A DNA stretch of 44,258 nt from positions 1 to 44,258 of IMG/VR virus record IMGVR_UViG_3300010367_000184; one strand, written 5' to 3'. The notes under the pieces are model-generated. The model was not told where the DNA came from. It searched no databases and saw nothing but the letters and a program-made list of their open reading frames with translations. The position numbers were made by a program, and so were the translations under genes. Shown in pieces: positions 25,733-44,258 of the stretch. The first letter of the stretch is position 1; each line of letters opens with the position of its first letter. This stretch comes from a virus.

Positions 25733-27889
25733 ATGATTCCACAATTCCTTTCCCAAGGATTTAATCTGTTCCCTTTAAAACCCGGCACAAAAGAACCTGC
25801 AATTTATAACTGGCAAACATGTTTTAGCGCGAACCCACCGGAAACCCATTACGGAGTGGCTCCTCAACTAGGATGGTTCGTACTGGATGTTGACCTCTAT
25901 AAACCAATGGGCCAAGAAAGTTTTGATAACCTTAAAGCGGCTACCGGACAATCATTTAACACATTTGCAGTGCAAACCCCTCGCGGGGGGAGACACTATT
26001 ATTTTAGAGTCCCGGCTGACTGGAAAGGTAAGCACAAACACCCGGAATTTGAAGGGATAGATGGCCAAGGGGTAGGAAGGTATGTTGTCGGCCCCCGAAG
26101 TAGGATATCTGAAGGAGAGTACGCGGTAATAGACAACGGAGTATCTCTTGAAAATGCGCTATATCTCAATCAATCATCCCTTGATTTATGGGAGGCTATA
26201 GAAGAGCATTTTTCAACAAGTCATGATATAATAGATATATCACCAGAAGATGAGGAAATCGCACATGTCGCTATTGAAACGGAACTCCGTAATATATCTC
26301 TGCCCAAAAACGGCGAAAACGCAAATGACACAATATATAAGCTGGCTGCGAATTGTAAGGACCGTGGTCTCAGTATTCAACGAACAACTGAGATTATCTT
26401 TAACTGGAATGACAGAGGAGAGGTACCATTCGCGCACGGGGAACTGCTCCCCATTATCCAAAACGCTTACAACTACACTAAAAATCCTGCTGGATGTAGC
26501 GCCTTGGGCGTCGAACGATTCGAGAATTATGGCGCTGAAGACTTTGAGAGAACATCAGAAACCTTCCACTATCATAGAGAAGATGAAGACAAGTCCCTTC
26601 CGCCAAACAGCAAAGAACGTTTGGACGCATTAATCGCAGGGTTAAAAATTGGACCGGGTGGCACTCCAAAGGCCAGCCCCACAAATTTGAATATATTGTG
26701 GGGGTTGCCGTTAACTGGTGGAGAATTAACGGGGGTATTCCGGTTTGATAGGTTACGACAATCTGTTTGGGTTGATAAGCGGAAAGCTTTTTGGAGAGCT
26801 AAAATCAATGCCGAATCGTCCGAGCGATTGGAAGATACAGACGTAATTGCCATCCGGGAGAAAATTGATCAAACTTACCAAGTCACCTTCCGAAATGAGG
26901 AAATACGGGATAAAATATCTCTTATCGCAAAGCATAATCAATTTCATCCGATTCAGGATTACCTTAACGGATTACCAGAATGGGATGGTAATAAACGAGC
27001 TGAGCAGTTGTTTATAGAGTATTTTCCTTACAAATGCGAGGGAGACGTTTTCAAATATAGGCAAGCCATTGCAAAAGCGTTTGTGTTGGCAGCGGTAAGG
27101 CGCGCTTTTCATCCCGGCGAAAAATGGGATAATATGCTCGTTTTAACCGGCTCCCAAGGCAAAATGAAGTCTACTTTTTTGGAAATTATGGCGAAAAATT
27201 CAGAATGGTATGCCGTCATACAAGATTTGAGGGATCTTAAAGCGGCGCAAGAAAAAATGCGAGGTAAATGGTGGATAGAATTACCGGAGGCGAAAGCTGT
27301 CACAAAAACGGATAACGATGTTCTGAAGGGGTTTATGTCAATGGCGGTAGACGAATATCGGCCTGCCTATGCGCGTGAAGTTATGTCATTTCCTAGGCAT
27401 TGCATTTTTGGGTGGACCCTAAATCCTAAAGAGGGAACGTCTTTTCTGAAGGACACGGAAAATAGGCGGTATTCGGTAATAGAAGTGATCCAATCTCTTA
27501 ATGCCAATCGTTTACGGGCTGATTTAGATCAAATTTACGCAGAAGCAATGGCTTGGTATCACGCAGGGGAAATGCCGTGGTTTGGATATGCAGACGTAAA
27601 TCCCGTTATGTCAAAATTGCAGGCAGAGATCCTTGAGGAAGATGCGGATGTGTGGGAAGGTCTGGCAAAAGAGTATGGAGAAAAGAATAAAGGCAAATAC
27701 TTTAAACTTTCGGACATCCTATTTGATATCTTTAATATTCCAATTGAACGCCAGGGTACCAAAATGAAACGAAGGATTACTCCTCTTTTGAAAAAAGAAG
27801 GGTGGGTTCAATATAGAACGAACATGGAAAAATTCTGGTGCTACCCCGAATTAGAAGCGGAAATAATCGATTGGGAAGGATTAATTTAA
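25733..27889 (+). CDS. Primase-polymerase fused to VirE-type ATPase/helicase (718 aa)
   Basis: N-terminal AEP (Prim-Pol) domain: metal-binding D52 and D54 in WFVLDVDLYK and H88 in GGRHYYF. A PriCT-like linker follows, then a C-terminal VirE/SF3-like P-loop domain with Walker A GSQGKMKST (473-481), a Walker B-like WWIELPEAKAV and later NRRYSVIEV. Met478 stands where the common P-loop has Gly; relatives may tolerate it. It should synthesise primers and perhaps unwind the origin. SD AAGGAG precedes ATG 25733. It heads the replication block. Confidence 0.88.
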   Translation: MIPQFLSQGFNLFPLKPGTKEPAIYNWQTCFSANPPETHYGVAPQLGWFVLDVDLYKPMGQESFDNLKAATGQSFNTFAVQTPRGGRHYYFRVPADWKGKHKHPEFEGIDGQGVGRYVVGPRSRISEGEYAVIDNGVSLENALYLNQSSLDLWEAIEEHFSTSHDIIDISPEDEEIAHVAIETELRNISLPKNGENANDTIYKLAANCKDRGLSIQRTTEIIFNWNDRGEVPFAHGELLPIIQNAYNYTKNPAGCSALGVERFENYGAEDFERTSETFHYHREDEDKSLPPNSKERLDALIAGLKIGPGGTPKASPTNLNILWGLPLTGGELTGVFRFDRLRQSVWVDKRKAFWRAKINAESSERLEDTDVIAIREKIDQTYQVTFRNEEIRDKISLIAKHNQFHPIQDYLNGLPEWDGNKRAEQLFIEYFPYKCEGDVFKYRQAIAKAFVLAAVRRAFHPGEKWDNMLVLTGSQGKMKSTFLEIMAKNSEWYAVIQDLRDLKAAQEKMRGKWWIELPEAKAVTKTDNDVLKGFMSMAVDEYRPAYAREVMSFPRHCIFGWTLNPKEGTSFLKDTENRRYSVIEVIQSLNANRLRADLDQIYAEAMAWYHAGEMPWFGYADVNPVMSKLQAEILEEDADVWEGLAKEYGEKNKGKYFKLSDILFDIFNIPIERQGTKMKRRITPLLKKEGWVQYRTNMEKFWCYPELEAEIIDWEGLI

Positions 27890-31531: not shown

Positions 31532-33457
31532 ATGGATAATAGGCTATTCATAGATTTTGAAAGCCGCTCAGAACTTAGCCTTAAAGAGGTTAACGCTTCT
31601 GTTTATAGCAATCATCCATCAACTGAAATTCTTTGTATGGTACTTACTCTCCCAAATGGGCAATCGATCCCCTTTACGATTAATGATAATTTTTCAAATA
31701 CGCTCGTTAGTCGGCATATAGAAGGTCTAATAGATGACAAGGTATTGGTGTCACATAATGCTGCATTTGAGCAATTCATTTGGAACAATATTCTGCATAA
31801 ACGGTACGGGTACGAGTATCTGCCGCCGTCTAGATTTAAATGCACAATGGCGAAAGTCTGCGCTCACGCTCTCCCAAGAAGTTTGGAGCAAAGCGCGGAA
31901 GCTTTGGGGTTATCTCAAGTCAAAGATATGGCTGGTAAAAAGTTAATGCTTGAATTGTCTGCGTCAAAAGGGGAAATTCCGAAAGAAAAATTAGATCGGC
32001 TGGTACAATATTGCGCTCAAGATAATTTAACGGCTATTGGGATTGATAATGCTCTTGATGATTTATCCGAATACGAGCAAAAAGTATGGGAAATGGATCA
32101 GAGAATAAATCAACGAGGAATTAATACGGATTTAGCTCTTGCAACTCGAATCAAACAATTGGCGGGTGCCGAACAGGAGAACGCTGAAAAAGAATTTCAA
32201 ATATTAGTAGATCATGAATTTGAACGACCGACACAACGAGTCAAATTGCTGAATTGGCTAAAACAAAATGGATTAGATCTTCCGAATACTCAAAAATCAA
32301 CAATCCAAGCGGTAGATTTATCTGCTCAATCCGGCAAAGTCCAACGCGCTATCGAACTATACAATTTAATGTCAAAAACCTCGGTTGCAAAATTCACTAA
32401 ATTGATTAATAGCGTGGATAGCGACGGTAGGCTCAGATGCAATACAATTTATCATGGGGCAAGTACCGGAAGATGGACAGGAGGCGCAGAATCGTCGGAA
32501 GGAAAAGTGGCAAGTACCCAATTGCAAAATTTGAAACGGCCTGATTTTGATCCAACTCTTGCTATTGACATAATTGAGAATGCCGAATTAATTTGGCCTT
32601 GTTTGGCTGGGAGCGTTTCTGAAGTCGCTTCCTCGTTAAGTCGAAGTTGTTTAATTGCTTCTGAAGGAAACAAACTGGTTTCTGTCGATTATTCTGGTAT
32701 AGAGGCAAGAGTTTTAGCATGGGTAGCGGGGCAAGAAGATCTGATAGAAGTATTTCGGCAAGGGAAATGTGTGTATTGTGCAGCGGCTTCCACAACTTAT
32801 AACCGCCTCATCACCAAAAAAGAAAACCCAGACGAGAGGCAGGTAGGAAAAGGGCAAATTCTTGCCTTTGGGTATGAAGGTGGTATTGCCGCGATGTATA
32901 AAATTTGTACACAGGGAAGAATTTCTTTAATTCCTGCAATTAAACCAATTTGGGATTCCTCCACCCCAACAGAAAGAGAAAAAGCAGAATGGTCTTATAA
33001 AAATTACCAAAGAGAAGCGGAAAAATTAAAATCGCCACATTTCAATAAAGAAGAAGGGATTACCGCTGATATCCTAAAACAGCGATATCGAGAAGCTAAT
33101 CCAAAAATTGTTAAATTTTGGGTTGGTGCGAAAACCGCTGCTTTTAGTGCTATTCAGCACCCAGGGAGGCGCTTTATAGCCCCAAATGGAAAGGTTGCAT
33201 TCATATATACGGGGGACTGGTTAAATTGTTATTTACCCAGTGGTCGTCCTCTTCACTATTTCAAGCCAGAACTGCGGGCGCAAAAAAATCGTTTTGGAGA
33301 GATGGTTCAAACTTTGACATATCTTGGAATAAACCCAAAAACAAAACAATTGGAAAGGGAATCGACGTACGGTGGAAAATTAACTGAGAACATTGTACAG
33401 GCGATAAGCCGTGATATTATGGTAGAAGGAATGATTAATGTGGAGGAATTGAGGTGA
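31532..33457 (+). CDS. Family A DNA polymerase, N-terminal piece (exonuclease, motifs A and B; motif C missing)
   Basis: 641 residues from ATG 31532 (SD AAAGGGG; a GTG at 31514 was refused). 3'-5' exonuclease: D8/E10 in LFIDFESRS, VSHNAAFEQFIW, and YCAQDN as ExoIII. Polymerase: motif A VSVDYSGIEARVLAW with D386, then motif B around GKGQILAFGYEGG, and the helix QAISRDIMVEGMINVEELR just before the stop. The second catalytic Asp (motif C, HDE) is absent here and lies on the ORF at 33551-33718 in the same frame. The piece alone should not polymerise. Confidence 0.9.
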   Translation: MDNRLFIDFESRSELSLKEVNASVYSNHPSTEILCMVLTLPNGQSIPFTINDNFSNTLVSRHIEGLIDDKVLVSHNAAFEQFIWNNILHKRYGYEYLPPSRFKCTMAKVCAHALPRSLEQSAEALGLSQVKDMAGKKLMLELSASKGEIPKEKLDRLVQYCAQDNLTAIGIDNALDDLSEYEQKVWEMDQRINQRGINTDLALATRIKQLAGAEQENAEKEFQILVDHEFERPTQRVKLLNWLKQNGLDLPNTQKSTIQAVDLSAQSGKVQRAIELYNLMSKTSVAKFTKLINSVDSDGRLRCNTIYHGASTGRWTGGAESSEGKVASTQLQNLKRPDFDPTLAIDIIENAELIWPCLAGSVSEVASSLSRSCLIASEGNKLVSVDYSGIEARVLAWVAGQEDLIEVFRQGKCVYCAAASTTYNRLITKKENPDERQVGKGQILAFGYEGGIAAMYKICTQGRISLIPAIKPIWDSSTPTEREKAEWSYKNYQREAEKLKSPHFNKEEGITADILKQRYREANPKIVKFWVGAKTAAFSAIQHPGRRFIAPNGKVAFIYTGDWLNCYLPSGRPLHYFKPELRAQKNRFGEMVQTLTYLGINPKTKQLERESTYGGKLTENIVQAISRDIMVEGMINVEELR

Positions 33458-33564
33458 GAATATTAGTTTGCAGCGGACGTGGTTATTACAATTGGTTAAA
33501 AATAAAAGAGGTTTTAAGACAAGAAATTACCCAAGCGGATAGTATAGTTTATGGGAATGATTGA
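33454..33564 (+). pseudogene. DUF2493-like N-terminal fragment (36 aa) inside the polymerase
   Basis: GTG 33454 overlaps the TGA of the polymerase piece (GTGA) and has GGAGG/GAGG upstream. The product VRILVCSGRGYYNWLKIKEV...ADSIVYGND looks like the first strand-turn-helix of DUF2493 (SLOG-like) proteins, which begin M-R-I-L-V-C-G-G-R-D. It then stops at TGA 33562-33564, inside the next polymerase piece, so most of the domain is lost. It may still act as a translational bridge between the polymerase pieces. Confidence 0.6.
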
Positions 33565-33718
33565 TCTTGTTCTTACGGTTCACGATGAATTAGTTATAGA
33601 CTGCCCTGAATGGATAGATGCAAAAATATTGGAAGAAGCTTGTATTAAACCGATTTCATGGGCATTGGATTTACCACTAGCCGTTGAATCAAAAGAAGGT
33701 AAGAGGTATAAAAAGTGA
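33551..33718 (+). CDS. Family A DNA polymerase, C-terminal piece with motif C
   Basis: 55 codons from ATG 33551 (or ATG 33557): MGMIDLVLTVHDELVID... with the H-D-E of motif C, then the C-terminal helix and LPLAVESKEGKRYKK. It is in the same reading frame as the N-terminal piece, separated by about 100 bases with six in-frame stops. No SD is present; start ATG 33557 overlaps the stop of the DUF2493-like fragment (ATGATTGA), so reinitiation is possible. It ends with GTGA overlap to the resolvase. Confidence 0.75.
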   Translation: MGMIDLVLTVHDELVIDCPEWIDAKILEEACIKPISWALDLPLAVESKEGKRYKK

Positions 33719-34188
33719 TTTATACAGGCATCGATCCGGGTAAGCAAGGCGGTGTTTGCCGAATTTTTCCAGAAAATTTTTTATCTATCGCATATTTCTC
33801 TAAAAATGATTCTCCTCTCGTCCATGGATTAGATGAACTCATATATATGGAAAAAGTCGGCCCTCGCCCTAATCAAAGTGCGATCTCTGGATGGACTTTC
33901 GCTGTCGCCGTAGGACGGCTAGAAGGAATGCTAAAGGCATGGAGTAAACCAATTAATTATGTGCTACCTCAAGTGTGGCAAAAAGAGCTTGGCCTATATG
34001 GTATCACATCTGGCATGACTTTTAAATCAAACGATGCTGAAAAAAGATATCGCAAAAAGAAATATCAAGAATACGCAATAAATACATTCCCAAAATATGA
34101 AAAACAGATTACACTAGAAGTAGCTGACGCAGTATGCATAGCGATATATGCAAAGTTAGTGTCTGAAAGAAAGGAGTTTGATATATGA
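33715..34188 (+). CDS. RuvC-like Holliday junction resolvase / crossover junction nuclease
   Basis: 157 residues. RNase H fold: D7 in TGIDPGKQGGV, E in YMEKVGPRPNQS, and the late acidic pair in LEVADAVCIAIYAKL, as in phage RuvC-type endonucleases. It likely resolves branched DNA before packaging. GTG start overlaps the polymerase C-piece stop (GTGA). The downstream gene starts by overlap of its stop. Confidence 0.85.
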   Translation: MIYTGIDPGKQGGVCRIFPENFLSIAYFSKNDSPLVHGLDELIYMEKVGPRPNQSAISGWTFAVAVGRLEGMLKAWSKPINYVLPQVWQKELGLYGITSGMTFKSNDAEKRYRKKKYQEYAINTFPKYEKQITLEVADAVCIAIYAKLVSERKEFDI

Positions 34189-34532: not shown

Positions 34533-34576
34533 AGGGAGTATTGTATTTATGGATGCAACCATACAGGAGAAGTTAT

Positions 34577-36472
34577 ATGAGTGATTTATCAAAACGCCGT
34601 TTAATCGGCGGTCCAGAGGACGATATAATGCGCATCTCCCCTGTGAAATACAAATGGGCCTGGGATTATTATATGCGGGCTAATGCCAATCATTGGCTTC
34701 CAAATGAAATCGACATGCAGAAAGATATCCAGCAATGGAACACGCCGGGGGTATTAACGGATAATGAAAAACATATCGTTAAAACAGCACTTGGATTTTT
34801 TACTACTGCCGATTCTCTTGTTGCCAACAATCTTGTACTTAAGATTTACAAACAGGTTACGGCTCCAGAAGTTAGAATGTACCTTCTCCGGCAAGCTTAT
34901 GAGGAGGCAATCCATTGTTATAAACGTGGAACAGATATACTCACAGAGAATGGATTTATTCCCTTTGAAGACCTCGGAAATGAAAGAGTGGCTCAATATC
35001 ATATGGACGGGTCGATAAGTTTCACGCATATTGATGAGAAAATCTGTGACGAATTTGAAGGGAACCTTATTTCGTTTCAAAACTATGGTACGTACCATTC
35101 CGTGGTTACCCCTAATCATCGTTGTGTAACCTTCAACGAAAGAGGCGGGGGTAGTTTAGAGATAACAATGGCGGAAAAGCTTTCCCCATGCAACCGACGT
35201 TTTCCAGTTTCTGGGGTACTTAAAGGTACCCGATCCTTAACCGATTTTGAACGGCTTCAAATTGCTTATCAAGCCGATGGAGATTTGTTAAACAAAGGGT
35301 TTAAAAATGGAGATGTAACCGATAATATAGGATATCTGTTTTCCTTTAAGAAAGAAAGAAAAATAGTACGAATACGGGAACTCCTAATTCGACTCGCGGT
35401 AGACTACACAGAGACCGTTATTGGATCAGGATTTACAAATTTTTATATTCGCGTTCCAAAGGAAACTCCGCTATCAAAAGATTTTAATTGGTTCTCTTTA
35501 TCCGAAATCTCCGGTAAATGGGCAGAGGAATTTATTGAGGAATTGCAGTATTGGGATGGGCCAACTAGGCCGAAGGGAATTGTGTACACTACAACAAATC
35601 AATTTAATGCAAACCAAGTTGTATTATTATCCCATCTCTGTGGCAAAAGGGCTGACCTATACCCTGCTCCCGAAACAGAAAATCGGAAAGAATCTTATCA
35701 AGTCCACATTTCGGAAAAATCCTATGTTATTGGTAAAACTATCGAGAAAACGGAGGAATATTACAAGGGAAAAGTATACTGCGTTGGAGTCCCAACCGGT
35801 ATGATTGTAGTTCGGTATAACGGAAAAATCGCCGTAAGTGGGAACACTCATTCGTATCAACACATTGTTGAATCGCTGGCCTTGGACGAAGATGAAATCT
35901 TTGAATCCTACCGAACTGTACAGTCGATTTACGATAAAGATGCCTTCGTCACCCAATTGGCTGAATCCACGGGATTAAATGCTATTATTGGATTTTATTT
36001 AATAATGGAAGGTATTTTTTTCTACTCCTCTTTCGCTGCCATTATGGCAATTAAACGCCGTAATCTCTTACCAGGAACCTGTAAGCAATTTGAATATATT
36101 ATGCGGGATGAATCAATGCATCTTAATTTTGGAATTGAATTGATAAACGGTATTTTCGGAGAAAATCCTCCCGGATCATACGATGTAGGGACGGTTAAAT
36201 CAGCTGTCGAAGCTGCCGTTAATCTTGAAAACGAGTACGCTACGAGACTTGTCGGGAAAGGAATGCTTGGATTGTCAGTAGAAAGTTTTCACCAATATGT
36301 TCAATATATTGCCGACCGGCGTCTAGAAGCGGTTTACCAAAATCCTATTTATAAAGTTAAAAATCCCTTTCCTTGGATGTCAGAAATTACAGATTTGCCT
36401 AAATATGGAAATTTTTTTGAAACTCGCGTAACCGATTATGCTATTGGGCAGCAATTAAATTGGGAGGAATAA
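34577..36472 (+). CDS. nrdB: Class I ribonucleotide reductase small subunit (NrdB-type) with intein
   Basis: 631 codons from ATG 34577 (SD CAGGAG); after splicing 321 residues, normal for the family. Makes the tyrosyl-radical/di-iron subunit for dNTP synthesis. Ligands: E-A-I-H just before the intein, E in GFYLIMEG, and E/H in RDESMHLNFG; radical Tyr in THSYQHI just after the intein. The intein (34916-35845) interrupts between the iron-ligand His113 and Thr, so without splicing the active site cannot form. A 10-codon ORF (34549-34581) with its own SD-like sequence overlaps the start. Confidence 0.92.
   Translation: MSDLSKRRLIGGPEDDIMRISPVKYKWAWDYYMRANANHWLPNEIDMQKDIQQWNTPGVLTDNEKHIVKTALGFFTTADSLVANNLVLKIYKQVTAPEVRMYLLRQAYEEAIHCYKRGTDILTENGFIPFEDLGNERVAQYHMDGSISFTHIDEKICDEFEGNLISFQNYGTYHSVVTPNHRCVTFNERGGGSLEITMAEKLSPCNRRFPVSGVLKGTRSLTDFERLQIAYQADGDLLNKGFKNGDVTDNIGYLFSFKKERKIVRIRELLIRLAVDYTETVIGSGFTNFYIRVPKETPLSKDFNWFSLSEISGKWAEEFIEELQYWDGPTRPKGIVYTTTNQFNANQVVLLSHLCGKRADLYPAPETENRKESYQVHISEKSYVIGKTIEKTEEYYKGKVYCVGVPTGMIVVRYNGKIAVSGNTHSYQHIVESLALDEDEIFESYRTVQSIYDKDAFVTQLAESTGLNAIIGFYLIMEGIFFYSSFAAIMAIKRRNLLPGTCKQFEYIMRDESMHLNFGIELINGIFGENPPGSYDVGTVKSAVEAAVNLENEYATRLVGKGMLGLSVESFHQYVQYIADRRLEAVYQNPIYKVKNPFPWMSEITDLPKYGNFFETRVTDYAIGQQLNWEE
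34916..35845 (+). mobile_element. Intein in NrdB (310 aa) with degenerate LAGLIDADG-type endonuclease
   Basis: Begins with Cys1 in CYKRGTDILTENG (block A). Block B is SVVTPNHRCVT (T-x-x-H). Block F/G is KVYCVGVPTGMIVVR...IAVSGN, with +1 Thr. The penultimate residue is Gly, not the usual His. The central part has LTDFERLQIAYQADGDL and LQYWDG, decayed-looking LAGLIDADG blocks, and TTTNQFNANQVVLLSHLCG. Joining HIS113 to Thr (EEAIH-THSYQ) restores the canonical NrdB motif without gap. Splicing competence and homing activity are inferred, not shown. Confidence 0.85.
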
Positions 36473-38834: not shown

Positions 38835-39176
38835 ATGATGAATGAACAGTGCTTAAACTGTTACAAACCGTGTAGTATTGAAGAAAATAAACCTCCCCGT
38901 CAAAAAATATTAGAGGAGGCTTTAAATTTAACATGTGGCGATCGAGCCAAAACCTATGGCAGGCCAAAACCAAATCTTAATTGCTTCGCACTGCTAATGA
39001 ATGCGTACGTTGCCGGGAAACCGGAGGGATCGGGAGATTTTGATGCAACGGATGCCGCAATATTTATGGCGCTTGCTAAAATATCCCGTATTGCCGTCAA
39101 TAAAAAACATAAGGATAACTATATAGATGGAGCCGCTTATTTAGCGATAGCTCGGGAGGTATTGGAAGATGATTAA
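38835..39176 (+). CDS. DUF6378-like protein (113 aa)
   Basis: After an N-terminal CLNCYKPC motif, residues 25-113 match the DUF6378 pattern: KILEEALNLTCGDRAKTYG, then ALAKISRIAVNKKHKDNYIDGAAYLAIA. This family is frequent near nucleotide metabolism genes and may be a MazG-like all-alpha protein; no enzymatic activity is known to me. It starts at the stop of its neighbour and overlaps thyX by 8 nt. Confidence 0.75.
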   Translation: MMNEQCLNCYKPCSIEENKPPRQKILEEALNLTCGDRAKTYGRPKPNLNCFALLMNAYVAGKPEGSGDFDATDAAIFMALAKISRIAVNKKHKDNYIDGAAYLAIAREVLEDD

Positions 39177-43799: not shown

Positions 43800-44258
43800 T
43801 TAGGTGTGCCATACGGTGAAATGAACCCATTCCGCTGAAGCGGTGCCAGTCGTAGAATTCCAAGTATAAAAATCTACTGATATAGTTGGATTATTAGCAG
43901 TATCTATAGTTACGACCCTAGAAGACCCCGAATTTTCAATCGATGCTACCACAGTCGGGCGAGTTGCTAGTGGGGTTGTATAAGTAAATCGTAACTGACC
44001 TGTTGTGATTTGAGAGGCAGTCCCTCCTACTAATTGAAGGCCAGCAGTCGTACCATCCGCTTTAATAGTCCCAAAGCCGATTATATAACTTGGCCCTTGA
44101 ACCCCTGTTGCGCCAGTGGCTCCGTTTGTACCGTTAGAACCTGCAACACCTGTCGCTCCAGTGGCTCCGTTTGTACCCGCAACACCTGTCGCTCCAGTTA
44201 CGCCTACAGCACCTGTTGCGCCAGTGGCTCCGTTTGTACCGTTAGAGCCTGCAACACC
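43800..44258 (-). CDS. Collagen-like fibre protein, C-terminal part (partial; joins 332..1)
   Basis: The minus-strand frame enters at 44258, carrying GATGATG and GTNGATG collagen-like triplets, then a ~105-residue C-terminal beta module starting YIIGFGTIKADGTTAGLQLVG and ending EWVHFTVWHT, stop at 43800. The module resembles those of the tail fibre (I-x-x-D-G, then LRFTYTTP). Direct 27- to 36-base repeats fill the first 150 bases. With the N-terminal part it makes one 256-residue protein when the 20-base redundancy is removed. Confidence 0.75.
   Translation of the reverse strand, partial: GVAGSNGTNGATGATGAVGVTGATGVAGTNGATGATGVAGSNGTNGATGATGVQGPSYIIGFGTIKADGTTAGLQLVGGTASQITTGQLRFTYTTPLATRPTVVASIENSGSSRVVTIDTANNPTISVDFYTWNSTTGTASAEWVHFTVWHT
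44239..44258. repeat. Terminal direct repeat, right copy
   Basis: Identical to bases 1-20. A longer 80-base match (44179-44258 to 13-92) also exists inside the collagen-like repeats, but is out of register with the very first bases. Confidence 0.8.

Follow-up and report, generated by a model that had tools for sequence, protein, structure and literature searches.

The window, by which we mean the whole 44,258-base virus record analyzed here, carries the modules of a T7-like podophage. Its structural genes encode a portal-like head–tail adaptor, tail tube proteins and the terminase. Replication is represented by a PrimPol/VapE helicase-primase, an exonuclease, an ssDNA-binding protein, a polymerase and a RuvC-like resolvase, and nucleotide metabolism by NrdB/NrdA and thymidylate synthase. 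NrdB (34541-36472) contains an intein-like insert that interrupts the family match at about residues 127-436 and ends VAVSGNTH; its sequence resembles insert regions of other phage proteins. At its two ends (1-60 and 44199-44258), the record has 20 identical bases in common, located in a repetitive tail-fibre gene; the contig might therefore be a circle or have been broken at the repeats.

The DNA polymerase is laid out in two ORFs that are bridged by a third, small one (Table 1). The N piece comprises the 3'-5' exonuclease domain, the thumb, the fingers, palm motif A (DYSGIEAR) and motif B, and it terminates after the helix that precedes motif C, with GMINVEELR as its last residues. The C piece brings motif C (VHDE), palm strands and a terminal KK. 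Family A (PF00476/phrog_17) is marked by having all motifs in one ORF, which does not hold here, as six stops lie between motifs B and C.

Table 1. Features of the split polymerase locus, in window coordinates
Feature	Coordinates	Strand	Basis
Polymerase N piece, 641 aa, family A	31532..33457	+	ORF; PF00476 residues 203-441; phrog_17 E 2.7e-85 to residue 639
Upstream copy of 12-nt direct repeat (GGAATGATTAAT)	33428..33439	+	Sequence
Shine-Dalgarno-like GGAGG, 7 nt upstream of bridge GTG	33442..33446	+	Sequence; putative role
105-nt interruption	33449..33553	+	Alignments; on removal NVEE meets GMIDLVLTVHDE at canonical spacing
Bridge ORF, 36 aa (MRILVCSGRGYYNWLKIKEVLRQEITQADSIVYGND)	33454..33564	+	GTG start in GTGA overlap with N-piece stop
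Polymerase C piece, 55 aa (53 aa from ATG 33557)	33551..33718	+	phrog_7766 E 1.8e-9; PF00476 328-380
Downstream copy of 12-nt direct repeat (GGAATGATTGAT, 11/12)	33554..33565	+	5/2000 random pairs match equally
ATGATTGA overlap, candidate C-piece start within bridge ORF end	33557..33564	+	Sequence
RuvC-like resolvase gene, GTGA overlap at C-piece stop	33715..34188	+	phrog_1770

As the first-pass annotation of this DNA had described, both pieces stand in the same frame, the second after six in-frame stops (TGA642, TAG645, TAA656, TAA658, TAA662 and TAG672 in read-through numbering, comprising all three kinds), and the bridge ORF overlaps both of them. PF00476 matches the N piece and the C piece as separate hits, and the PHROG polymerase families end at residue 638-639 of the first piece and resume at residue 4-6 of the second. 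Alignments to homologues also bear out the claim that joining NVEE directly to GMIDLV restores the usual spacing; since this join has exactly the usual length, the insert can be sized at 105 nt.

Every residue that is invariant in a 78-sequence alignment is retained across the two pieces taken together. Among these are D386 of motif A, K440 of motif B and H684-D685-E686 of motif C, and in addition to the latter three the C piece keeps the invariant K728. Neither piece contains a further stop or frameshift. In its codon usage the C piece behaves like a typical gene of this phage, with wrong frames reaching its score 0.2% of the time; together with its matches to PHROG polymerases (E 1.8e-9 and 9.8e-9), this argues that the C piece is no chance ORF.

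Nevertheless, the polymerase might be newly dead, the insertion having removed motif C, and the phage would then be replicated by the host polymerase or with a contribution of the PrimPol-helicase. Such a loss would fit the severed HDE motif and also the C piece being among the least conserved of its kind: it keeps 12 of 19 conserved positions, compared with a mean of 83% in relatives, and ranks first from the bottom of 77. The N piece is divergent as well (rank 4 from the bottom of 77), and given that the polymerase diverges as a whole, the C piece may, but need not, be under relaxed constraint. The uninterrupted frames, the intact catalytic residues and the coding-like codon usage speak against a dead gene. 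The first-pass annotation had stated that the phage possesses no other replicative polymerase. This holds for PolA, PolB and PolC, since no second such gene was found in the record, but not without reservation, because the helicase-primase gene (25733-27889) encodes a VapE-like helicase (PF05272) that is preceded by a fused PrimPol domain (PF09250) at the N-terminus. The PrimPol domain may count in favor of a lost polymerase; in contrast, a homologous phage has PolA and a VapE-family gene side by side, and the helicase would hence not obviously be a PolA replacement. Intact polymerases in homologous phages, combined with a second polymerase in this genome, had been named as evidence against a split enzyme; such homologues do exist, but here the second PolA, PolB or PolC is absent. 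On balance, we regard a dead polymerase as unlikely.

When the read-through sequence was folded together with relatives, the model had a mean pLDDT of 91 and a pTM of 0.92. Residues 681-728 reached a pLDDT of 94-98, and the insert fell to values as low as 62. The best PDB matches of the model were the Klenow fragment and the Pol I of phage G20c. The prediction was guided by the alignment of intact relatives and by the covalent link, and what it shows is hence compatibility rather than assembly in trans: in the model, the C piece takes up its expected position and the fold tolerates the interruption.

We scanned loci from IMG/VR, GTDB and phage records, selected by their polymerase, with separate profiles for the regions before and after the join. 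Both regions were found in one ORF at 168 of 174 loci. The six others consisted of two representing this very genome, three in which the region was missing at a contig end and one from Achromobacter phage tuull that seems to contain a frameshift. Another 55 loci, from distant kin and recovered almost entirely through the exonuclease, so that the polymerase played no part in their selection, were unsplit at this position. Accordingly, none of the 223 related loci with both regions readable is split here, from which it follows that the interruption is derived. Direct homologues among the phrog_17 polymerases, such as those of Xanthomonas phage Mallos and Stenotrophomonas phage A1432 (about 31-36% identical over the full length), are single ORFs, unlike the present gene. 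The related PolA genes also display irregularities of other kinds. In phage tuull (L003:3986-6284), frameshifts probably account for a break after motif C (VHDGKGRTHV), and PolA of Escherichia phage CR01 (L014:972-3171) is annotated as three consecutive CDSs. In two others (L042:2986-6102 and L154:3992-6829), an intein-like insert occupies the site (L)(V/A)EN|C, which precedes the present join by about 18-20 residues, and this part of PolA thus takes insertions in other phages too.

No close relatives were found among the accessible records with the polymerase, two helicase genes and the junction DNA pattern as queries. The split is known from a single metagenomic record and no second copy of the junction was found, as might be expected if it had arisen from a sequencing or assembly error, or if the assembler had picked a minority variant. 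Yet the window holds no copy of the insert longer than 11 nt elsewhere, a misjoin would presumably depend on k-mers being shared at two sites separated by 105 nt, and the insert contains a coding-like ORF with phage-like overlaps. An artefact is therefore rather improbable in our view.

What the inserted DNA once was may be read from the bridge ORF. Its single Pfam match is YAcAr (PF10686), which we take to be the family formerly named DUF2493, with bridge residues 1-30 aligned to profile positions 1-30. The E-value is 0.15 and the score 12.3 bits, compared with a gathering threshold of 28.2, but of the 66 profile positions the bridge has only the first 30; none of 10 shuffled bridge sequences gave any Pfam match. 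The bridge presumably stops where the glycine-rich loop of the family would begin. Codon usage of the bridge is coding-like, with 1.4% of wrong-frame stretches reaching its score, although its +1 frame, which contains stops, scores equally well. From these sequence comparisons, the bridge is probably the truncated start of a YspA/DUF2493 (YAcAr) gene and not a family member. The likeness to DUF2493 proposed in the first-pass annotation is thus backed by a lone match, in register but below threshold, and the proposal that such a gene inserted and was then deleted is plausible, with this match and the blank shuffles lending it weak support. No complete YspA gene was found near the polymerase in the records of relatives or beside the polymerase studied here, and a YspA/DUF2493 search of the phage's own genome gave no match. 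Bacterial genomes yielded no usable members of the YspA family, and a tblastn search of phages and plasmids with the bridge returned no match. In the PDB, the bridge matched nothing beyond an unrelated bacteriocin, and that weakly.

Both overlaps that flank the bridge have counterparts in the same genome. The GTGA form recurs where the C-piece stop meets the resolvase start at 33715, and ATGATTAA at 39169, leading from a DUF6378 gene (38835-39176) to the thymidylate synthase gene, has the same form as ATGATTGA. The GGAGG lies inside the N-piece codons GTG GAG GAA, and no separate Shine-Dalgarno precedes the C piece. Given the two overlaps, the GGAGG and the recurrence of these forms, chained reinitiation would be the simplest route to the C piece. 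The 12-nt direct repeat is unlikely by chance but fixes no single recombination history. Through its downstream copy, GMI comes to stand where homologues mostly carry [A/K]G[Y/F]; of 141 sequences, 111 have G at position -8 and 103 have Y or F at -7. The repeat hints that the right-hand junction and its start codon might have arisen through a local copying event. The repeats were also considered as a functional excision site; this was rejected, as recombination between the copies would delete 7 helix residues.

The common frame of the two pieces and the repeat spanning the gap might also suggest that ribosomes bypass the 105-nt gap in the manner of T4 gene 60 and so produce a single polypeptide. 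However, in-frame matching codon pairs occur only inside the repeat, 5-7 residues would be lost and the stop is not abutted, so that a take-off and landing pair of the right length is missing. Furthermore, the join folds no better than shuffled sequences (z +1.0), and the gap of 105-126 nt compares with a guided sliding of gene 60 whose efficiency drops beyond about 56 nt (PMC11194080). Bypassing, which the first-pass annotation had entertained, is on these grounds very improbable. We assign a similarly slight chance to a joining of the pieces by stop-codon recoding or by splicing, be it of RNA or of protein. Phage polymerases are known to harbor introns and inteins, two of the related PolA genes carry their intein-like inserts only some 18-20 residues upstream, and NrdB of this phage has one as well. 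Against RNA-level removal, also proposed earlier, zero Rfam families match in the window, and 105 nt is shorter than any self-splicing intron that we know of. The join lacks intein-like sequence, with a bridge of 36 aa whose sole Pfam match is YAcAr, and recoding is implausible because the gap contains all three types of stop codon.

We hence favor, with moderate confidence, an insertion, now a YspA remnant, that split the gene into pieces which are made by chained translation and assemble into a functional split polymerase. The family A polymerase gene of a T7-like podophage would have been interrupted by foreign DNA between the helix after motif B and the strand bearing motif C. What remains of this DNA would be the start of a YspA (DUF2493/YAcAr) gene, and the halves would now be separate genes. 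Ribosomes would terminate the 641-aa piece at the GTGA overlap and initiate the bridge there, aided by the internal GGAGG; translation of the bridge would end at ATGATTGA, followed by a restart on the C piece. The resulting 53-55-aa protein with the catalytic HDE hairpin would then join the N piece and complete the palm. Co-production by chained reinitiation, as the earlier annotation had suggested, is supported by the anatomy and by published precedents. In the most specific form of this reading, the enzyme would obtain its motif C Asp in trans, from a 53-residue subunit translated on its own, and a relay of termination and reinitiation across three ORFs, passing through a captured gene fragment, would determine how much of this subunit is available; we consider the chances of this to be about even.

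Split polymerases are known in other phages; what is new here is the split site, the very small C piece and the kind of bridge. In the OM43 phages MEP401 and MEP402 (OP830906, OP830907), a small ORF divides PolA ahead of motif A, and such a split has been reported for most group I relatives (PMC10580990). As in those phages, which resemble ours in genome size (about 43 kb), two ORFs together cover PolA with a small ORF between them, abutting or overlapping, and the split lies just before a palm strand that bears a catalytic Asp. In contrast, the MEP401/402 split before motif A leaves a C piece of 236 aa, whereas ours lies before motif C and leaves 53-55 aa; the bridge there has 77 aa and is of unknown kind, whereas here it is YspA-like; and the split is common in that group but found here in a single genome.

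In Aeromonas phages 25 and 44RR, the replicative polymerase is likewise encoded by two genes, gp43A and gp43B, whose products reassemble, and those of phage 25 co-purify and are active (PMC2988022). That polymerase, however, is of family B, and what separates its two genes is either a seg endonuclease gene or an untranslated spacer, in contrast to the family A enzyme described here. Essential enzymes are also split at a critical region in Aeh1 NrdA (mobE) and the T4 topoisomerase gene (mobA), although there the inserted gene is a homing endonuclease (PMC2988022). In the Lactobacillus phages Semele and Iacchus, the DNA polymerase gene is likewise split, by an ORF of unknown function; these are myoviruses, unlike the podophage here, and split site and mechanism were not resolved there (PMC6669764). 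If the split enzyme works as proposed, PolA would be divisible inside its catalytic core, with a fragment of about 50 residues bearing one essential Asp, and an insertion that broke the gene would have been turned by the phage into a functional enzyme encoded by several genes. The locus would thereby provide a new natural split site for split-polymerase studies and, beside MEP401, a second independent PolA case of the same layout, in which the palm is split ahead of an Asp-bearing strand with a small ORF in between.
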